43,369 bases of DNA from a bacterium (GCA_021800535.1 JAJYYV010000015.1:1-43369); one strand, 5' to 3'; positions 1,888 through 16,699 are shown, counted from the stretch's first letter. The notes: generated by a model not told the origin, from the sequence alone. Made by a program: numbers and translations.

Positions 1888-3177
1888 ATGAATGGGCCTG
1901 TTTTAAAAAATAATAATCATAAAGAAACAATACTTTTTCTTACTGAAATTTTAAGAATACCTGTAATTGCAAATGAAAAAAAAATAGGCAGACTTATTGA
2001 TTTTGTCATTATAGACAGGGATAAATTCGCTGAGGTAACACATATATGTGTCGGCAGACCTTTTGGATATCCAACCCTTATAATTCCATGGAATAAAGTC
2101 ATTGAAATTGCTGATAGAAAAATTTCTATAGATATCAAGGAAAAAGAAATAGAAGAATACGCTGTAGAACCCGATAAAAAAACAATATTATTAAAAGACT
2201 ATATCCTGGATAAAAGGGTTCTTGATGTAAAGGGAAGAAAAGTAGAAGTGGTATATGATATTAAAATGGTTATAAGAAATAACAGACTCTATTTAATAGA
2301 TGTAGATTTAAGCAGGTCTGGATTCTTACGTCGTATAGGATTAAAATGGCTGGCAAATTTTATTGATAATTTAGCAACAAACATAAAGAAACAAACTATT
2401 CCATGGAACTATGTAGAACCATTATCAGAAGAAATAAGCAGTTTTAAAGGCGACCTGAAGTTAAAACTATTAAAAGAAGAACTTTCTAAAATGCCTCCTG
2501 AGGATTTAGCAGATATATTAGAAGAAATGGACCATGAACAAAGAGTAGCAGTATTCAATGAACTTGAAACAGAACAGGCTTCTGATACATTGGAGGAATT
2601 AGACCCAACAGTTCAAAGACCCCTTATTGCTTCTATGGAAAAAGAAAAAACAGCCAAACTAATAAAAGAAATGTCACCTGCTCAGGCAGCAGACATATTT
2701 TCTATTCTTCCTATGAATGAAGCAAAAAACATATTAAATCTGCTTCCACCTGAAAATGCCAAAAAAATAAATTCCATACTGGAAGCTCAGGAAATAAAAA
2801 TTCTTGATTTTGTCATTATAAATTACTTAAAAACATTTCCTGATAAAACAGTAAAAGAAACAAAAGATACTTTTCAAAATATGGCAAAAGGTAAAGATGT
2901 AATAATGTATTTATATATAATAGATGAACAAAATAAATTGCTTGGGGTAGTTCATTTAAAGGAACTGCTAATGGCAAATGATGAATTACTACTTAAAAAT
3001 ATAATGACAGACAAGGTGGTTTGTTTAAATCCTAACAGCACACTAAAAGAAGCCTCAGAAATGTTTATCAGGTATGGTTTCCGGGCATTGCCTGTTGTTG
3101 ACCAGACAGATAAAATACTTGGTGTCTTACCTTATAGGGACCTAATAACCCTAAAACAGCTTTATTTACAATTATAA
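1888..3177 (+). CDS. Soluble PRC-barrel / MgtE_N / CBS protein (channel-less MgtE-like regulator)
   Basis: 429 residues without a transmembrane segment. Domains in order: two PRC-barrel-like beta segments (about residues 15-95 and 105-185), the MgtE intracellular N-domain made of short helical repeats (about 195-300, with MPPEDLADILEEMD-type motifs), and a CBS-domain pair (about 305-429). In true MgtE channels the N and CBS domains sense Mg2+ and gate a C-terminal transmembrane pore. Here the pore is absent. The gene follows an NRMT-like transporter and a small membrane protein in the same operon, so it probably acts as the magnesium-sensing regulator of that transporter in trans. Domain identity is confident; the partnership is inferred. 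Confidence 0.85.
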   Translation: MNGPVLKNNNHKETILFLTEILRIPVIANEKKIGRLIDFVIIDRDKFAEVTHICVGRPFGYPTLIIPWNKVIEIADRKISIDIKEKEIEEYAVEPDKKTILLKDYILDKRVLDVKGRKVEVVYDIKMVIRNNRLYLIDVDLSRSGFLRRIGLKWLANFIDNLATNIKKQTIPWNYVEPLSEEISSFKGDLKLKLLKEELSKMPPEDLADILEEMDHEQRVAVFNELETEQASDTLEELDPTVQRPLIASMEKEKTAKLIKEMSPAQAADIFSILPMNEAKNILNLLPPENAKKINSILEAQEIKILDFVIINYLKTFPDKTVKETKDTFQNMAKGKDVIMYLYIIDEQNKLLGVVHLKELLMANDELLLKNIMTDKVVCLNPNSTLKEASEMFIRYGFRALPVVDQTDKILGVLPYRDLITLKQLYLQL

Positions 3178-10162: not shown

Positions 10163-12040
10163 TTATAATGCTTCAAATCCTTTTTCCCCTGTTCTTATCC
10201 TCATGGCATTATAGGCATCTGTAACAAAAATTTTTCCATCACCGATATTACCTGTGTAAGCTGCCTCTCTAATAATATCCATAACCCGTGGAACATCCCA
10301 TTCCTTCACAACAATATCCACTCTCACTTTTGGATTAAATAATATTTTATCAGTTTCTTTATTTTCTTCTGTACTGCCTAATTGTCTGCCAAATCCTTTT
10401 ACCTTTGTTATTGTCATTCCAATGATAAAATCTTCTTCCTTCAAAGCCTCTGCCACAATAGCAACATGTTCAGGACGAATCATGGCAGAAACCATTTTCA
10501 GATTATATGATTTATTAACAGTATTCATTCCAACATATATCAAACTTACCAATGCCCATGATCCTGCTATAACAAAACATATTTTCGCTTCAGTTTGTGA
10601 TGCAGGGTTCCCTATAATATAAAGATAGAGAATTGCTATAGCCATAATAAGATTGGCAATCACTCCTAATACAGGAATAATACCATGCTTCAAAATATTA
10701 AATTCTTTCCTTTTTTTAAATGCAATAATCGTCCAGGCACATGTTAAACCATAAAGGGTGAATGTCCCCAGGTTTGAAGCCAGAGTAATTCCTGTTAATC
10801 CTACAACACTACGTACCCCCACAATTCCTATAATAGCAGTAACTGCTATCAATATCACAAGAGTAATATGCGGGATTTTAAATCTACCATGTAAATAACT
10901 CATCATTCTTGGTAATTCCTGATTTTCAGCCATACCTGCGCTAACACGCATAGCTGTATTCATACAACTTAATGTTGTACCTACAATTGCAATGGCAACT
11001 GTAATCGCCATAGAAATCATTAATCCAAATCCGATGCCATTAAATAATGTATTCCCTATAATTTTAGTAAGACCTCCTATGGGAGCGATAGAAACTGCTG
11101 CGGCTGCCATTCCTTTTACAAGGGTTGTTCCTGCAGTATGTGTTAATTTATTACTAAGCATATAGTTTGCTGAAAAATACTCCAATAGATAAGCAAATAA
11201 TCCTTGTATAATAAGCGCAATAATTATTGCCTTTGGAATTGTTTTTTGAGGATCCTTTGTTTCAGCAGCAAGAGAAGTGGAACTTTCAAATCCTACCAAA
11301 ATCAAAATAGCTATTGTGGATTCAATCAACATGCCATTAAGTGAATGTATCTTTAGGACATCCCATGCACTTGAAAATACCCAGTGCGTTATATGTTGTG
11401 GATTGTCAAGCCTATACCATATTGCGGCTCCACTAAATCCCAGAAGAGTAACAAGTTGTATAATATTTATCCATAAAGATGTTCTGGTTGAACCTGTGAT
11501 ACCTCTATATGCAATATATCCTGTAGTAATAGTAAAAAGAATACATATGGTAATTAAATCCGGTATTGACAATTGTCTGCCTGTAAATTGTGTAAAGATA
11601 TAACTAATCATGGTTGTCATCATTGCCACCATTACTCCAGGATAAACCCAGTAATAAAGATGTGCCGACCAACCTGTAATAATTTTTGAGACACGGGCTA
11701 ATGAAATTGGAGTAGAAGATTTTTCTTTTCTGTTATCCAACCATGCTTTTTCTGCAAAATATGTACAACTTGCAAAACCGGCTTCAGGATAAATTTTAGC
11801 TAATTCTGCATATGAAAGTGCCGTAAGAAATGCGACTGCCAAAGCAAGTAATATACCAGACCATATATCCCCGGCAACTGAAACTCCATTCGGGGCAGTA
11901 GCTGCAGCCTGCATCTGATATGTAATCCATAAAAATGCGCCAGGAGCTATCAGAGCCATGGCATTTACAGTTACTCCAATCAAGCCTAATGTTCGTTTTA
12001 CTCCGCTTCCATTTTCATTCACTCTATTTTTATCTGTCAT
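10163..12040 (-). CDS. APC-superfamily amino acid/amine permease fused to a C-terminal PII domain
   Basis: 625 residues. Residues 1-500 form a 12-14 helix APC permease (N-terminal GLIGVTVNAMALIAPGAF; YAELAKIYPEAG; FESSTSLAAETKDP). Residues 513-625 form a complete PII signal-transduction domain with KGFGRQ before the T-loop, KVRVDIVV, TGNIGDGKIFV and RIRTGEKG, i.e. the ATP/2-oxoglutarate-binding elements. Its T-loop has no tyrosine, so it cannot be uridylylated like standard GlnB. The gene follows free PII by 19 bases and shares its leader. Probable function: nitrogen-compound uptake gated by its own PII domain. The substrate is not known. A TGA/TAA-free junction shows that the fusion is genuine. 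Confidence 0.9.
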   Translation of the reverse strand: MTDKNRVNENGSGVKRTLGLIGVTVNAMALIAPGAFLWITYQMQAAATAPNGVSVAGDIWSGILLALAVAFLTALSYAELAKIYPEAGFASCTYFAEKAWLDNRKEKSSTPISLARVSKIITGWSAHLYYWVYPGVMVAMMTTMISYIFTQFTGRQLSIPDLITICILFTITTGYIAYRGITGSTRTSLWINIIQLVTLLGFSGAAIWYRLDNPQHITHWVFSSAWDVLKIHSLNGMLIESTIAILILVGFESSTSLAAETKDPQKTIPKAIIIALIIQGLFAYLLEYFSANYMLSNKLTHTAGTTLVKGMAAAAVSIAPIGGLTKIIGNTLFNGIGFGLMISMAITVAIAIVGTTLSCMNTAMRVSAGMAENQELPRMMSYLHGRFKIPHITLVILIAVTAIIGIVGVRSVVGLTGITLASNLGTFTLYGLTCAWTIIAFKKRKEFNILKHGIIPVLGVIANLIMAIAILYLYIIGNPASQTEAKICFVIAGSWALVSLIYVGMNTVNKSYNLKMVSAMIRPEHVAIVAEALKEEDFIIGMTITKVKGFGRQLGSTEENKETDKILFNPKVRVDIVVKEWDVPRVMDIIREAAYTGNIGDGKIFVTDAYNAMRIRTGEKGFEAL

Positions 12041-12059: not shown

Positions 12060-12401
12060 TCAGGAAATAGCAATATCTCCCTTTTCTTTTGTTCTTATTC
12101 TAATGGCATTTTCTATATTGGATATGAAAATTTTTCCATCACCTTCTTTTCCTGTAAAACCTTCCTGACATATTATATTAACTATTTTATCTACATCTTC
12201 ATCTTTAACTACAATTTCAATTTTAACCTTGGTTAGTAATCCAATCTTATACTTTTTCCCATGAAATTCCTGTTCTATTCCTTTTTGTTTTCCATATCCT
12301 TCAATTTCAGTAATCATCATTCCGGGACATCCTGCTTTTTCCAGAGATGTGCTTATATCCCCAAGTTTTGTTGGACGTATTATGGCTTCTATTTTTTTCA
12401 T
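12060..12401 (-). CDS. glnB: Nitrogen regulatory protein PII
   Basis: 113 residues aligning along the full length with GlnB/GlnK: KKIEAIIRPTKL at the start, EGYGKQKG before the T-loop, KVKIEIVV, GDGKIFI and AIRIRT. The uridylylation tyrosine is kept (Tyr51 in GKKY), while Tyr46 is phenylalanine. Ligands of PII are ATP/ADP and 2-oxoglutarate, and it controls transporters and enzymes of nitrogen assimilation. GGAGGAG lies just before the ATG. Upstream is a leader with two hexaloop hairpins and a terminator; downstream is a permease with its own PII domain. Amt lies about 3 kb away on the other strand. GlnB and GlnK cannot be separated by sequence alone. Confidence 0.93.
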   Translation of the reverse strand: MKKIEAIIRPTKLGDISTSLEKAGCPGMMITEIEGYGKQKGIEQEFHGKKYKIGLLTKVKIEIVVKDEDVDKIVNIICQEGFTGKEGDGKIFISNIENAIRIRTKEKGDIAIS

Positions 12402-12432: not shown

Positions 12433-12468
12433 AAAAAAAACGTTTCTCTTCTTTGAAGAAGAAAAACG
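12433..12468 (-). terminator. Intrinsic terminator in glnB leader
   Basis: On the minus strand 12468-12441 folds into a 13-bp stem (CGTTTTTCTTCTT with AAGAAGAGAAACG; the innermost pairs must open to form a loop), followed by eight U at 12440-12433. It lies inside the glnB leader, between the promoter and the RBS, so it must be regulated. Its 5' arm shares bases with hairpin P2 at 12465-12476. Confidence 0.85.
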
Positions 12469-12502
12469 CCTTTGTCATAAACCAGAGCATCTATGCTCAA
12501 AA
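12441..12502 (-). repeat. 62-bp direct repeat, copy 1 (glnB leader)
   Basis: This block is identical to 14575-14636, in the leader of the BBP2 porin gene. It covers the entire P1-P2-terminator switch. Flanking bases differ apart from the promoter-like blocks farther upstream. Confidence 0.95.
12465..12498 (-). promoter_or_regulatory. ANTAR-target-like two-hairpin antiterminator, glnB leader
   Basis: P1 (12498-12485) is GAGC-AUAGAU-GCUC. After an 8-base linker, P2 (12476-12465) is GAC-AAAGGC-GUU. Both loops are six bases with A at position 1 and G at position 4, the rule known for RNA targets of ANTAR-domain antiterminators. P2 shares its 3' arm with the terminator stem, so the two structures exclude each other. 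The same element occurs in the BBP2-porin leader, and variants precede the sigma-like gene and amt. Confidence 0.7.
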
Positions 12503-12507
12503 TAATC

Positions 12508-12558
12508 TAATAAATCCTTATATTTATTAAAGTAAATCTTAAACGAATTCTGGTAACC
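12508..12558 (-). promoter_or_regulatory. Probable glnB promoter with upstream GGTTACC
   Basis: On the minus strand TTTACT (12536-12531) and TTATTA (12513-12508) are 17 bases apart and put the transcript start just before hairpin P1. GGTTACC lies farther upstream (12558-12552), inside the sigma-like gene's 3' end. The BBP2-porin promoter has the same GGTTACC and TTTACTTTAATAA blocks at nearly the same distances, which supports function. Confidence 0.45.
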
Positions 12559-13057
12559 TTTCTATTTTTTCACAGATTCTGTTTTTTATTTTTAAAATCA
12601 TAACATGCGATACACCAAGATTTTTTCCGCATTGCCTTAATGTATATCCGGAAAAAAGTAGTTTTAAAACCTCTGTTTCTCTTAAGCTTAGATTTGCAGC
12701 ATTTATTATTTCATCAAGATAGATATCCTCGTTGCTGTTTGAATTTTTAGATTCCATATAGTTTCTGTTAAAAATTCCTTCATCTATTTCTTTTCCAAAG
12801 TTTCCCAAAGATATAATGCTAATTTTTGAATTGGTTTTTCTTTTTTTCCGGATATAGTTATTCAAAGCAAACCTGCAGGAATTTACTAAATATGTGCCAT
12901 TTTTATCTTCACATTCACCTTTTAAGAATCTATCATAAAGATTTATAATTGCTTCCTGATATAGATCTTCTTTTCCAATTCCCATTGGTAATGAATATCC
13001 ATTTATAAGAAACCATAGCCTTTTTTCCACTTTGTTTAAAATATTTTCAAAACTCAT
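12539..13057 (-). CDS. Small sigma-70-family (ECF-like) RNA polymerase sigma factor
   Basis: 172 residues. An N-terminal region-2-like helix pair contains KEDLYQEAIINLYDRF (about residues 28-43) and NSCRFALNNYIRKKRK. A C-terminal region-4 helix-turn-helix reads LSLRETEVLKLLFSGYTLRQCGKNLGVSHVMI (about 122-155). The linker between them is rich in Asn and Ser. No anti-sigma factor is adjacent. It has its own promoter (13203-13230) and a long structured leader, and sits between the BBP2 porin and glnB on the same strand. A role in transcribing the nitrogen genes is plausible but inferred. It lacks the three-helix ANTAR domain, so it is not itself an ANTAR antiterminator. Confidence 0.75.
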   Translation of the reverse strand: MSFENILNKVEKRLWFLINGYSLPMGIGKEDLYQEAIINLYDRFLKGECEDKNGTYLVNSCRFALNNYIRKKRKTNSKISIISLGNFGKEIDEGIFNRNYMESKNSNSNEDIYLDEIINAANLSLRETEVLKLLFSGYTLRQCGKNLGVSHVMILKIKNRICEKIERLPEFV

Positions 13058-13061
13058 AACT

Positions 13062-13114
13062 GCCTCCTTTTTTCTTTAGGAAGCGTCTTTGCCTGAGTAA
13101 AAGGCTGCATTGCC
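13062..13114 (-). promoter_or_regulatory. Two-hairpin element and Shine-Dalgarno-sequestering switch of the sigma-like gene
   Basis: P1 (13114-13103) is GGC-AAUGCA-GCC. After a 9-base linker, P2 (13093-13082) is GGC-AAAGAC-GCU. Both hexaloops have A1 and G4. No terminator follows. Instead GCUUCCU (13084-13078) can pair with AGGAGGC (13068-13062), a 7-bp stem with a 9-base loop that would bury the Shine-Dalgarno sequence of the gene starting at 13057. The 3' arm of P2 is part of that stem, so forming P2 would free the ribosome-binding site. Confidence 0.6.
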
Positions 13115-13120
13115 ACTAAA

Positions 13121-13162
13121 TAAAAAAGCCTCCAGAAGAAGCAACTATGCTTTCTGGAGGCT
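13121..13162 (-). terminator. Upstream terminator in the sigma-gene leader
   Basis: On the minus strand an 11-bp perfect stem AGCCTCCAGAA / TTCTGGAGGCT (13162-13152 with 13137-13127) is followed by six U. The apical part is AGC-AUAGUU-GCU, again an A1/G4 hexaloop. A third P2-like hairpin, GAGAC-AAAGUA-GCCUC (13172-13157, one A-C mismatch), overlaps its 5' arm and could act as antiterminator. A closely similar module lies at 15320-15358 in front of amt. Confidence 0.8.
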
Positions 13163-13202
13163 ACTTTGTCTCTTCTATTTACAAATTTCTGAATTTTAAA
13201 TA

Positions 13203-13230
13203 ATTATATCACAAATAATTAAAATGTCCA
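13203..13230 (-). promoter_or_regulatory. Promoter of the sigma-like gene
   Basis: On the minus strand TGGACA (13230-13225) and an extended -10 TGA-TATAAT (TATAAT at 13208-13203) are separated by 16 bases. It overlaps the stop codon region of the BBP2 porin gene and predicts a leader of about 140 bases. Confidence 0.6.
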
Positions 13231-14550
13231 TATAATAGTAAAATTAATAGTATTTTGTGTGCTTTTTAATCTATTGATTCCTGTTGGATATATATCATGA
13301 TTTGCATCCTGATGTTCAAATTCTAACCGGAACTGTGTATTTTTAAACATTCTATATGAAGGAGCATAAGCAAATGTCAGGGTTTCATCAGAAAAATCAT
13401 ATCTTGTGCCGGGTGTTACACCGGGTTCAAATAAACCATTAGAATCTACTGCAACTGCCAGTCGAAGTGTTTCTGATATTTTACCAATAGGATAAATATA
13501 TTTATGGTGAATATAAAAAGAAGTCCCATTAAAATATCCTTTATCATAGACATCACCAGATAAAACAAGTGGTGATGGATAGGCTACAGAACCGGAATTT
13601 ATTCCATCAGAAGTTAATATATTTTTATTTATGCCACTAGATAGTCCTATATCTTTTTCCAAAATAAATGTCCAGTCAGACATAGGACTGAATACTGTAT
13701 TTACATAGCTGTAAAAACTTTTATTTTTATTATCCGGGTAAATTGCATTATTATTTGCAACAATATAATTATTTGTGCCATATACAAATCCACCATTAAA
13801 ATTAAGACTATTTAAAGGTGTATATGAGGAATTAAATTCTATTGTTGGAGTATTATCTATAGGAACTACCGTATTCTGTGAATTTACTATTCCTAATGTA
13901 GTTTGAAGACTTGATATAAAGTTATAAGTAAAAAGTATTCCCGTATATGTTGATGGTTCTGCATTATCCAATAAAGAATATGTATCATTCCAATTTCTAT
14001 ATATATTAAAATTTTCAAATCCTAAAAGTTCTTTATGTTTTCCGATATCTATTGTAAGTCCTGTACCAACAGGCAAATATAAACTTATATATGCCTGTCT
14101 TATATCAAAAGGTTCTCTTTGATAAAAAGGTTCAGTAAAAAAAGTGGAATTACCATAATATGCTTTATAGAACTGAATATTTTGTCCTGAATCAATAGAT
14201 ATATGAAATCCAACACCATAAGGATTAGAGATAGTGCAGGTAGGTTTTCTTATAGTAATATCTGCATAGTTAACTGTAAATCCATTCTGCCAGTTATCTC
14301 CATAATTTGCATTATAAGCATTTGGTTTTGCAAAATTATATGACCAGGAAGAAACTAAAGTCCCGGATATCTGTATATTGGAAAAATAAGAATTCCTGAG
14401 AAATTTATTTTTTACCTGAACCAATGAAGTTTCATACTTGGAAGAAGACGAAATATTGTCAGCAAAAGAATTTATAACAAGACATAAACAGTTTAACAAA
14501 ATTGCTCCCAAAATGATAAATAATAAATTTGATTTTAATTTAAAATACAT
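13219..14550 (-). CDS. Outer-membrane beta-barrel porin, BBP2 (OmpL-like) type
   Basis: 443 residues from ATG 14550, chosen because GAGGGA lies just upstream and the protein then starts with a signal peptide (MYFKLKSN, hydrophobic core, cleavage near SFA). A start at 14634 would place the regulatory leader inside the coding region and is rejected. The mature part is rich in Asn, Tyr and Ser, with many short beta strands (for example RQAYISLYLPVGTGLTIDIG and LGFENFNIYRNW) and ends with IIWTF, a terminal aromatic typical of BAM substrates. These features fit the putative beta-barrel porin-2 family. Its leader contains the same switch as glnB, so it probably admits a nitrogenous solute; the substrate is unknown. 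Confidence 0.75.
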   Translation of the reverse strand: MYFKLKSNLLFIILGAILLNCLCLVINSFADNISSSSKYETSLVQVKNKFLRNSYFSNIQISGTLVSSWSYNFAKPNAYNANYGDNWQNGFTVNYADITIRKPTCTISNPYGVGFHISIDSGQNIQFYKAYYGNSTFFTEPFYQREPFDIRQAYISLYLPVGTGLTIDIGKHKELLGFENFNIYRNWNDTYSLLDNAEPSTYTGILFTYNFISSLQTTLGIVNSQNTVVPIDNTPTIEFNSSYTPLNSLNFNGGFVYGTNNYIVANNNAIYPDNKNKSFYSYVNTVFSPMSDWTFILEKDIGLSSGINKNILTSDGINSGSVAYPSPLVLSGDVYDKGYFNGTSFYIHHKYIYPIGKISETLRLAVAVDSNGLFEPGVTPGTRYDFSDETLTFAYAPSYRMFKNTQFRLEFEHQDANHDIYPTGINRLKSTQNTINFTIIWTF

Positions 14551-14562
14551 GTTTATTCCCTC

Positions 14563-14603
14563 AATAAAAAATAGCGTTTCTCTTCTTTGAAGAAGAAAAA
14601 CGC
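14563..14603 (-). terminator. Terminator in BBP2-porin leader
   Basis: On the minus strand a 14-bp stem (GCGTTTTTCTTCTT with AAGAAGAGAAACGC, 14603-14574; the innermost pairs must open to form a loop) is followed by a U-rich tract TATTTTTTATT. It lies between promoter and RBS and shares bases with P2 at 14599-14610. Confidence 0.75.
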
Positions 14604-14636
14604 CTTTGTCATAAACCAGAGCATCTATGCTCAAAA
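14575..14636 (-). repeat. 62-bp direct repeat, copy 2 (BBP2-porin leader)
   Basis: Identical to 12441-12502 and in the same orientation. The identity ends at the switch boundaries, which suggests leader duplication, gene conversion or very strong constraint. Confidence 0.95.
14599..14632 (-). promoter_or_regulatory. ANTAR-target-like two-hairpin antiterminator, BBP2-porin leader
   Basis: P1 (14632-14619, loop AUAGAU) and P2 (14610-14599, loop AAAGGC) are identical in sequence and spacing to those in the glnB leader. P2 overlaps the terminator stem. Confidence 0.7.
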
Positions 14637-14640
14637 AAAT

Positions 14641-14690
14641 TTATTAATATTATTAATTATTAAAGTAAAATACATCCTAATTTGGTAACC
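14641..14690 (-). promoter_or_regulatory. Probable promoter of the BBP2 porin gene
   Basis: On the minus strand TTTACT (14669-14664) and TAATAA (14646-14641) are 17 bases apart, with GGTTACC at 14690-14684. The arrangement mirrors the glnB promoter, and the predicted start lies directly before P1. Confidence 0.45.
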
Positions 14691-14696
14691 ACTAAT

Positions 14697-14732
14697 AAAC
14701 CCATTCTATCTTTCTAACTACAAAATGGGTTT
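14697..14732. repeat. 9-bp perfect inverted repeat
   Basis: AAACCCATT (14697-14705) and AATGGGTTT (14724-14732) are perfect inverted repeats around an 18-base centre. It lies just upstream of the porin promoter with no U-tract, so an operator is more likely than a terminator. Bases 14733-14834 show nothing else I can name. Confidence 0.5.
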
Positions 14733-14834
14733 AACTCAATATTTAGATCTACCCATATTTTTTATTTTTATTTTAAATTCTTCCAACCCCATCCTAAAAC
14801 CCTGAAAAATCTACCTTTCTTAGAAAAACCCCCT

Positions 14835-14924
14835 TCATAAAACGCATTTATTTATATCCGACGCGCTGTGTGGCGGAAACCCTTTTTCTCTTTTTACAGC
14901 GCCCTTCAGTATAATTCTTCCCAT
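14835..14924 (-). CDS. Possible 29-residue peptide ORF with strong RBS
   Basis: ATG at 14924 is preceded by GAGGTG at an ideal 6-base distance and opens a 29-codon frame that is basic and ends at TGA 14837-14835. I do not recognise the peptide. The coding stretch contains an inverted repeat, GCGCTGT (14863-14869) with ACAGCGC (14896-14902). It is followed by no recognisable gene on this strand before the porin promoter. It may be a genuine small protein, a leader peptide, or part of an interspersed repeat. Confidence 0.35.
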   Translation of the reverse strand: MGRIILKGAVKREKGFPPHSASDINKCVL

Positions 14925-14967
14925 TTATATCACCTCTTTTTTGTTTCACATAATAAGACTGAATTAA

Positions 14968-15291
14968 TTTTTTTATGAACTGAAAATTTCAAATATCCCA
15001 TTTTTGAAATCTAAAATAACTTTAAAATTTGAGGAAAATAAAAATTTAGTTGATGTAGATATTTTACTAAAGAATATAAAAATTTTTAATTTTACAATAT
15101 CTGCAGCTTATAAATTTGGAGAAATAAAAAACACTCTATAACAACAAGGTACTCCTTTGAACGATACGGATATTTTTATTGCATCTATTGCTATGGCTTC
15201 AAATTTTACAGTTGTCACTCATAATATTAAAAATTTCTCAAAAATTCCAAATCTTAAAATAATAGATTGGATGACAGAATCTATGGTATAA
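14968..15291 (+). pseudogene. VapC-type PIN-domain toxin remnant
   Basis: The frame from 14968 reads as the middle and end of a PIN-domain VapC protein: a YELKISNIP segment, SAAYKFGEIKNTL, an in-frame TAA at 15139-15141, then GTPLNDTDIFIASIAMASN, VVTHNIKNF and LKIIDW, with the final stop at 15289-15291. The LNDTD aspartate and the VVTHN motif are typical of VapC. The N-terminal DTN motif is missing because a stop lies at 14965-14967. No VapB antitoxin gene is present. The remnant is therefore inactive. Its last bases now carry the amt promoter. Confidence 0.7.
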
Positions 15292-15292
15292 T
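15284..15292 (+). promoter_or_regulatory. Extended -10 promoter of amt
   Basis: TGG-TATAAT at 15284-15292 is an extended -10 box without a strong -35. It overlaps the stop codon of the vapC remnant. A 7-bp hairpin (15294-15300 with 15306-15312) follows at the predicted transcript start, and the leader to the amt ATG would be about 165 bases. Confidence 0.6.
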
Positions 15293-15319
15293 ACTCCATA
15301 ATAAATATGGAGATACTGT

Positions 15320-15358
15320 AGCATCCGAAAAGCATAGTTGCTTTTCTGGAGGCTTTTT
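15320..15358 (+). terminator. Upstream terminator-like module in amt leader
   Basis: AGC-A-UCCG...CUGGA-G-GCU encloses AAAAGC-AUAGUU-GCUUUU (15328-15345) and is followed by five U. It has one mismatch and one bulge. The hexaloop has A1 and G4. The module is nearly the same as 13121-13162 in front of the sigma-like gene. Confidence 0.6.
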
Positions 15359-15361
15359 ATT

Positions 15362-15392
15362 TGCAGAGTTGCATAAAAATAACAAGGACGTT
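15362..15392 (+). promoter_or_regulatory. ANTAR-target-like two-hairpin antiterminator, amt leader
   Basis: P1 (15362-15373) is UGC-AGAGUU-GCA. After a 7-base linker, P2 (15381-15392) is AAC-AAGGAC-GUU. Both hexaloops have A1 and G4. P2 overlaps the 5' arm of the strong terminator that follows. The stems are short (3 bp), so protein stabilisation would be needed. Confidence 0.65.
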
Positions 15393-15421
15393 TTTCTTTC
15401 AAAGGAGAACGTCCTTTTTTT
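15384..15421 (+). terminator. Intrinsic terminator directly upstream of amt
   Basis: A stem of up to 16 bp (5' arm 15384-15399 starting AAGGACGUU, 3' arm 15401-15416 ending AACGUCCUU, inner pairs opening to form the loop) is followed by seven T at 15415-15421. It ends 42 bases before the amt start codon, so it must be overcome for expression. Confidence 0.88.
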
Positions 15422-15463: not shown

Positions 15464-16699
15464 ATGGCACATACAATGATAAACGCAGGTGATACTGCAT
15501 GGGTATTGGTATCTACTGCTCTGGTTATGCTTATGACTCCGGGGCTGGCGTTTTTTTATGGAGGTCTTGTCCGCAGAAAAAACATTCTCGGTGTTCTTAT
15601 GCAATGTTTTATAGCTTTATGTGTGGTAAGCATTCAGTGGATTCTTTTTGGGTTTAGCCTGGCTTTTGGTCCATCACATGGATTCTGGGGAGGGTTTGCT
15701 TATGCTGGTTTAAGAGGTGTTGGTTTTGCTCCAAATCCTGCTTATGCTCCAACAATACCATTTGAATTGTTTATGGCATTTCAGATGATGTTTGCAGTAA
15801 TTACCCCGGCATTGATAATTGGAGCTTTTGCAGAAAGAATGAAATTTCCATCTTTTCTTTTGTTTACAGTTTTATGGTCAACATTTGTATATGACCCTAT
15901 AGCACACTGGGTATGGGGTACAGGAGGCTGGTTGAAAATGCTTGGTGTTTTGGATTTTGCAGGTGGAACTGTTGTACACATTAATGCCGGAATTGCAGCG
16001 TTAGTAACAGCCTTGATTATAGGAAAAAGAACCATTGACAGAACACCACCGCCTCATAACCTTCCTTTTGCTGCTCTTGGAGCGGCATTGTTATGGTTTG
16101 GATGGTTTGGATTTAATGCCGGCAGTGCCCTTGCTGCAAATGGTATTGCTGTAAACGCTTTTGTTACAACTAATACAGCTACAGCTGCCGCAGGGTTAGG
16201 ATGGATGTTTATGGACTGGATATTTAATGAAAAAGCCACCCTTTTAGGGGTAATATCAGGTGCAGTGGCAGGTCTTGTTGCTATTACTCCGGCCTCAGGA
16301 TTTGTCAGTCCAATGGCTTCAATAATAATAGGGTTCGTTGCAGGAACTTTTTGTTTTCTTGCTGTAAGTTTCCTTAAACCAAAGTTTGGTTATGATGATT
16401 CCTTGGATGCATTTGGAGTTCATGGAATTGGTGGAATAGTAGGAGCCATTTCCACAGGATTTTTTGCTTCAATACTAATAAACCCAGGCGGGGCAAATGG
16501 TCTGCTTTATGGAAATGGAAAACAGGTGCTGATACAGCTGCTTGCTGTTGGTGTAACAATTGTTTATACATTTATATCAACATTTATAATTTATAAAGTT
16601 ATAGATATTGTTATGGGTGTCCGGGTGAGTGAAAAACATGAACATATGGGAATTGACTTATCCCAGCACCATGAATCTGCCTATACACTTATGGAGTGA
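15464..16699 (+). CDS. amt: Ammonium transporter Amt
   Basis: 411 residues with eleven hydrophobic segments. Family motifs are clear: GLAFFYGGLVRRKN near the N-terminus, DFAGGTVVHINAG (the conserved aspartate and first pore histidine of AmtB) and GVHGIGGIVG (second pore histidine). The cytoplasmic tail ends in GIDLSQHHESAY, the segment that PII proteins contact. AGGAG at 15451-15455 precedes the ATG. It conducts ammonium across the inner membrane and is normally blocked by GlnK when nitrogen is ample. The free PII gene glnB lies about 3 kb away on the opposite strand, and both have related RNA switches in their leaders. Confidence 0.96.
   Translation: MAHTMINAGDTAWVLVSTALVMLMTPGLAFFYGGLVRRKNILGVLMQCFIALCVVSIQWILFGFSLAFGPSHGFWGGFAYAGLRGVGFAPNPAYAPTIPFELFMAFQMMFAVITPALIIGAFAERMKFPSFLLFTVLWSTFVYDPIAHWVWGTGGWLKMLGVLDFAGGTVVHINAGIAALVTALIIGKRTIDRTPPPHNLPFAALGAALLWFGWFGFNAGSALAANGIAVNAFVTTNTATAAAGLGWMFMDWIFNEKATLLGVISGAVAGLVAITPASGFVSPMASIIIGFVAGTFCFLAVSFLKPKFGYDDSLDAFGVHGIGGIVGAISTGFFASILINPGGANGLLYGNGKQVLIQLLAVGVTIVYTFISTFIIYKVIDIVMGVRVSEKHEHMGIDLSQHHESAYTLME

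Follow-up and report, generated by a model that had tools for sequence, protein, structure and literature searches.

Known ANTAR systems and the genome studied

Nitrogen regulons under ANTAR control that include PII and Amt were predicted earlier, for example in Desulfotomaculum acetoxidans (Ramesh et al. 2012, PMC3369931). The system described here resembles those regulons in its dual A1/G4 hexaloop leaders, which overlap terminators and precede genes of PII, ammonium transporter and glutamate functions, and in having several sites per genome (PMC3369931). It differs from them in belonging to another phylum and in having one GAF-GAF-ANTAR protein, a porin gene and an ECF sigma gene among its putative targets, and a promoter-like box that goes with the sigma gene. 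The core of the regulon (PII and Amt under ANTAR) is thus already described, and the phylum is new. In its RNA architecture and in the RNA-contacting residues of its ANTAR domain, the system is like EutV/eutP of Enterococcus, NasR/nasF of Klebsiella and AmiR/amiE of Pseudomonas (PMC8934654, PMC7496416). The sensor is a pair of GAF domains here but a phospho-receiver, NIT or AmiC-bound domain in the EutV, NasR and AmiR systems and, unlike in those systems, the leaders stand on several unlinked operons, none of which has the regulator gene close by. Actinobacterial ANTAR RNAs are similar in having hairpins over the ribosome-binding site and in lying upstream of regulator genes; the factors targeted there are of the LacI, TetR and ArsR types and serve sugar or metal genes, and sigma factors are unmentioned (PMC8164766).

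In the literature searched, we found no description of ANTAR-ECF pairing and no paper on Omnitrophota and ANTAR together. Work by Ueki and Lovley (2010; cited in PMC8164766) on nitrogen-fixation cascades of Geobacter reportedly places ANTAR antitermination inside a nitrogen cascade, with two-component systems and the RpoN sigma factor. ANTAR, antitermination and ECF sigma factors are mentioned together in one paper, on the cold response of Caulobacter. To our knowledge, no member of the Omnitrophota has been cultured, and next to nothing is known of how the phylum controls nitrogen use.

The stretch of DNA analysed (43,369 nt, hereafter the window) is contig C80 of an Omnitrophota genome of 2.0 Mb that is 91% complete. 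Among named relatives, Candidatus Omnitrophota bacterium FK_Sedi_B_Bin.251 is the closest, with ANTAR proteins 84% identical. The sample for the box, sigma and leader-model comparisons was 61 genomes, in which G001 is the only congener of the window's genome.

On the minus strand, glnB (12060–12401; P-II protein of 113 aa, Pfam P-II 3e-29) forms one operon with a gene 19 nt downstream (10163–12040, minus; Pfam AA_permease and P-II), in which an amino-acid permease is fused to a P-II domain at its C-terminus. This fusion lies beside a stand-alone glnB, and the transporter may have a nitrogen-sensing domain of its own. The ECF-type sigma gene (12539–13057, minus; 172 aa) has glnB and the gene of a BBP2 (OmpL-like) outer-membrane porin (13219–14550, minus; 443 aa, Pfam BBP2 1e-26) as its neighbours. 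The ammonium transporter gene amt (15464–16699; 411 aa, Pfam Ammonium_transp 7e-134) is on the plus strand. A short ORF just before it (15160–15291, plus) weakly matches the terminal part of a PIN-type (DUF4411) protein and looks like a degraded remnant.

Paired hexaloop hairpins in four leaders

The sequence-only reading from which this work started had proposed that the leaders of glnB, the porin gene, amt and the sigma gene each carry two hairpins, P1 and P2, with A1/G4 hexaloops and linkers of 7–9 nt. We located such a pair in all four leaders, with stems of 3–4 bp and linkers of 8, 8, 7 and 9 nt, respectively. These linkers are within the functional range reported for eut, where 5–12 nt function and 3 and 14 nt fail (PMC3369931).

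In the glnB leader (minus strand), P1 is GAGC-AUAGAU-GCUC (12485–12498; covariance-model match 12463–12499, 37 bits) and P2 is GAC-AAAGGC-GUU (12465–12476), which overlaps by 4 nt an intrinsic terminator followed by a U tract (12441–12468; -12.8 kcal/mol). The porin leader (minus strand) has the same letters in P1 (loop AUAGAU, 14619–14632; covariance model 37 bits) and in P2 (loop AAAGGC, 14599–14610), with P2 again overlapping an intrinsic terminator and its U tract (14574–14603; -16.2 kcal/mol). In the amt leader (plus strand), UGC-AGAGUU-GCA (15362–15373; 33.2 bits) is followed by AAC-AAGGAC-GUU (15381–15392) and by an overlapping terminator with a U tract (15386–15414; -15.2 kcal/mol). 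The overlap of P2 with a terminator that had been noted in three cases was found in these three leaders. Their P2 stems are too weak for folding unaided, as expected of a protein-stabilised antiterminator, which they fit without being evidence for one.

The sigma leader (minus strand) is built differently after P2. Its P1 is GGC-AAUGCA-GCC (13103–13114; 36.2 bits, as a seed of the model) and its P2 is GGC-AAAGAC-GCU (13082–13093). The 3' arm of P2 (GCU) opens the segment GCUUCCU, which pairs with the Shine-Dalgarno sequence AGGAGGC in a hairpin that overlaps P2 by 3 nt (13062–13084, minus). Since the arm of P2 starts the Shine-Dalgarno-pairing segment, the sigma site would act on translation, and we conclude that it probably does so instead of acting via a terminator. 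ANTAR control of translation was noted by Ramesh et al. (PMC3369931) and is common in actinobacteria (PMC8164766). We regard the proposed ANTAR-type nitrogen regulon as supported, with one probably translational site among the four leaders.

The sequences of the leaders were said to differ while structure and spacing stay. This is true of amt and the sigma gene. The glnB and porin leaders, in contrast, are near-identical copies from P1 through the terminator, so that the window holds three independent leader sequences, not four. Pairs of A1/G4 hexaloop hairpins with a loop gap of 13–15 nt numbered 7, a clear excess over the 1.45 ± 1.2 obtained from dinucleotide shuffling; with the P2 loop restricted to AARGRC, a rule set after seeing the sites, there were 4 against 0.02 (60 dinucleotide shuffles, maximum 1).

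Upstream of P1, the sigma and amt leaders have about 60 nt in common. This part includes a terminator-like hairpin with an A1/G4 apex, AUAGUU, and a U tract (13128–13161, minus, in the sigma leader; 15321–15353, plus, in the amt leader), the core of which, AGCATAGTTGCT, occurs in the genome only at these two leaders. This hairpin could act as the first of two attenuators in tandem.

The common stretch bears on another explanation of the sigma leader, in which the ANTAR targets are glnB, the porin gene and amt only, and the sigma leader is an unregulated by-product of a copied amt-type leader. The lack of a terminator after its P2 and the lack of an ANTAR leader on the sigma gene in any other genome would agree with this. 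The letters of P1 and P2 differ, however, from those of amt, with both A1/G4 hexaloops kept, the 3' arm of P2 pairs with the Shine-Dalgarno sequence, and the leader scores 36.2 bits, though as a seed. We regard a by-product as rather improbable and a regulated sigma leader as the better reading.

Extent of the proposed regulon and conservation of the leaders

We built a covariance model from eight leaders, with seeds partly picked by eye for structure; model scores and pair counts therefore lean towards the structure. Four distinct leaders of the window's own genome were in the seed, the porin leader being a copy of that of glnB. A scan of the whole genome gave five sites at 33–37 bits, namely the four in the window and one at a second amt gene (C1:8240), which the sequence-only reading had missed. 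Nothing else in the genome was above 18.4 bits, and the match with that score was in coding sequence. Weaker matches in the genome (≤18 bits) and most weak matches in relatives were dropped for the same reason. Because own-genome leaders were in the seed, the scan shows that there are few other sites and is not an independent confirmation. The only fully held-out support for the model is its best non-seed match in the 61 genomes, the glutamate dehydrogenase leader of G027, a genome with an ANTAR protein; there, the hexaloop hairpin GGC-AAAGGA-GCC overlaps a terminator.

Among nine other amt leaders of the clade, six have the dual hexaloop element (about 0.05 each in shuffles), and five of these six conform to the A1/G4 rule in its plain form (P about 5e-5). 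Relatives thus keep the hairpins. Covariation was seen as well: in the alignment of the eight leaders, whose rows were chosen for structure, 96% of cells were paired and the covariation of stem columns was 0.85, against 0.30 when shuffled and at most 0.28 when slid. This alignment was A3; the MAFFT alignments A2 and A5 were set aside as their hairpins were out of register. In two families of the order, the loop pattern, the gap and the overlap of P2 with the terminator recur with changed letters. The AARGRC form proposed for P2 loops applies to the window but not to some relatives, which have AAUGAU, AAUGCC and AACGGC. In the otherwise ANTAR-like leaders of G014 and G027 (L101, L072), the P1 loops (GAAGUA, GAAGAU) have G1 instead of A1.

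The second amt leader of the genome (L104:8240-8323) has A1/G4 six-base loops in both hairpins. Both it and the amt leader of G001 (L103) show GGAC-AAAGAA-GUCC plus an A1/G4 P2; neither a terminator nor a clear switch was seen in these two leaders.

The three amt genes without the element are those of G007, of G010, which has no ANTAR match, and of G011, which has an ANTAR protein but no visible leader. The contig carrying amt in G007 looks, by its sequence, like Bacteroidota contamination. In G010, the sigma gene, the box and a terminator leader are kept, and amt is without a leader. The terminator leader precedes a gene for a 248-aa protein (2296–3042, minus, L100), itself before amt. That protein has no Pfam match and looks like an outer-membrane protein. 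We rejected this leader as an ANTAR target: it has one clean A1/G4 hexaloop hairpin by the terminator, and its P1 is imperfect, with a loop that is no clean hexaloop.

A single ANTAR protein with two GAF domains

The sequence-only reading placed an ANTAR protein elsewhere in the genome. A profile search, which could have spoken against this, found exactly one, at 76.4 bits against a Pfam cut-off of 27.3; the ANTAR-domain scores that we recorded were 72–76 bits against the same cut-off. The protein has 399 aa and the order GAF-GAF-ANTAR, and its gene (G000:C21:66214-67413) has no nitrogen genes nearby. At least 19 relatives also have a single ANTAR protein, and in many relatives ANTAR is present and amt absent.

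We aligned the protein with EutV, NasR and Rv1626. Ten residues of EutV touch RNA in the crystal structure, and three of them, Arg142, Lys149 and Glu160, hold G4 (PMC8934654). Seven of the ten are identical in our protein (R142, K143, K147, K149, E160, M172 and R175), including all three contacts to G4. Its GAF domains score best with NifA and PtsP among NCBI models. Because NifA and PtsP are nitrogen-status proteins, a nitrogen metabolite would be a fair guess, but no more, for the signal of these domains.

Together with the leaders, this protein bears on whether the leaders could be attenuators or terminators of an ordinary kind, governed by a riboswitch, by a leader peptide or by some different RNA-binding protein, with A1/G4 arising by chance. 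The stems are short (3–4 bp), and G010 has a terminator leader with no ANTAR protein, as such an explanation might predict. Rfam, however, gave no fitting family: at both thresholds, and with the glutamine riboswitches included, none reached its gathering score and only chance-level matches (E > 1) were returned. The recurrence of loop pattern, gap and terminator overlap in two families despite changed letters, and the single ANTAR protein in the relatives, also argue against it. We consider ordinary attenuation very unlikely, and the four leaders are very probably ANTAR-target RNAs.

The sigma factor and a promoter-like box

The sigma gene encodes a genuine member of the sigma-70/ECF family. 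It matches TIGR02937 at 51.2 bits (cut-off 42.9), and the four sigma homologues score 51.2, 45.8, 50.3 and 55.2 bits. The protein has regions 2 and 4 only, as helical domains, two in number, that a loose linker connects, and its structural neighbours are sigma factors, with low TM-scores (a weak, two-domain match). The homologues were found in only 4 of the 61 genomes. Besides the window's genome these are G010, G014 and G018, where the gene adjoins amt; in G014 and G018 its reading frame overlaps that of the preceding gene at the latter's end, and it lacks a separate leader. The ANTAR leader on the sigma gene is found in the window's genome only.

Pattern searches revealed a box, also missed by the sequence-only reading, of the form GGTTACCA-N13/14-TTTACTT directly upstream of two of the leaders: GGTTACCA-N14-TTTACTTTA before that of glnB (12528–12558, minus) and GGTTACCA-N13-TTTACTTTA before that of the porin gene (14661–14690, minus). 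No box was found upstream of the window's amt and sigma genes, which seem, from their sequences, to use ordinary sigma-70 promoters. Elsewhere, the box stands before the amt ANTAR leader of G014 and, in the form AGTTACCA, before that of G018; in G010 it lies before the terminator leader, where the sigma gene ends. It is confined to the four sigma-bearing genomes of the 61, always upstream of nitrogen-cluster leaders (P about 2e-6 for the co-occurrence of box and sigma gene, with the AGTTACCA variant of G018 included). We base the specificity of the box on this clade search: the 61 genomes have no further match to the strict pattern, the reversed control gives three scattered matches, and a shorter pattern has a few scattered matches in other genomes. 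The combination of an ECF sigma factor with a promoter-like box upstream of the glnB and porin leaders looks new.

The two halves of the box, GGTTACC and TACTTTA, are 16–17 bp apart, which is the usual spacing of ECF promoters. Alternatively, the ANTAR switch could be real and the box be an operator for some other DNA-binding regulator that happens to have been passed on together with the gene cluster. GGTTACC, one half of the box, is almost a palindrome (GGTNACC symmetry), and there are five boxes only. The two in the window stand on leaders that are recent mutual copies. In G010, G014 and G018, the box comes just after the sigma gene, so that common descent of a single cluster accounts for some of the co-occurrence. 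Promoter-like spacing argues against an operator, as does the divergence of the sequence between the two elements while the elements are kept, seen also between the window's two copies. In addition, the porin box stands away from the sigma gene, and the distance from box to P1 fits a promoter. An operator is thus a possible but less favoured explanation, and we prefer a promoter used by the sigma factor.

A possible feed-forward circuit

In the mechanism that we propose, a nitrogen signal at the GAF domains would activate the GAF-GAF-ANTAR protein, which would dimerise and grip both A1/G4 hexaloops of a leader. P2 would thereby be held closed, blocking the overlapping terminator of glnB with the PII-permease gene, of the porin gene and of amt, and blocking, at the sigma gene, the hairpin that hides the ribosome-binding site, so that the sigma mRNA could be translated. 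Under the activating nitrogen condition, whichever direction the signal has, the ANTAR protein would allow read-through into amt. The ECF sigma factor would recognise GGTTACCA-N13/14-TTTACTT and start the glnB and porin transcripts, which would need the ANTAR protein again for passing their terminators. If the sigma factor recognises the box upstream of these leaders, both operons would need sigma initiation as well as ANTAR read-through.

We see the case as evenly balanced for one GAF-GAF-ANTAR protein that opens the terminators of nitrogen operons and also allows translation of a dedicated ECF sigma factor, which would start those same operons. There is an equal chance for and against a coherent feed-forward circuit in which the two proteins jointly gate nitrogen-scavenging genes. 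Our results show the anatomy of the RNAs and its conservation, the ANTAR protein with its key residues, the family of the sigma factor and the joint occurrence of box and sigma gene; all functional arrows are inferred, the one from ANTAR to sigma from a single genome.

For the Omnitrophota, these results provide a testable regulon with a named regulator. The known range of ANTAR targets would gain an outer-membrane porin and a sigma factor, and initiation by an ECF sigma factor and elongation under an ANTAR protein seem to be coupled at the same promoters.
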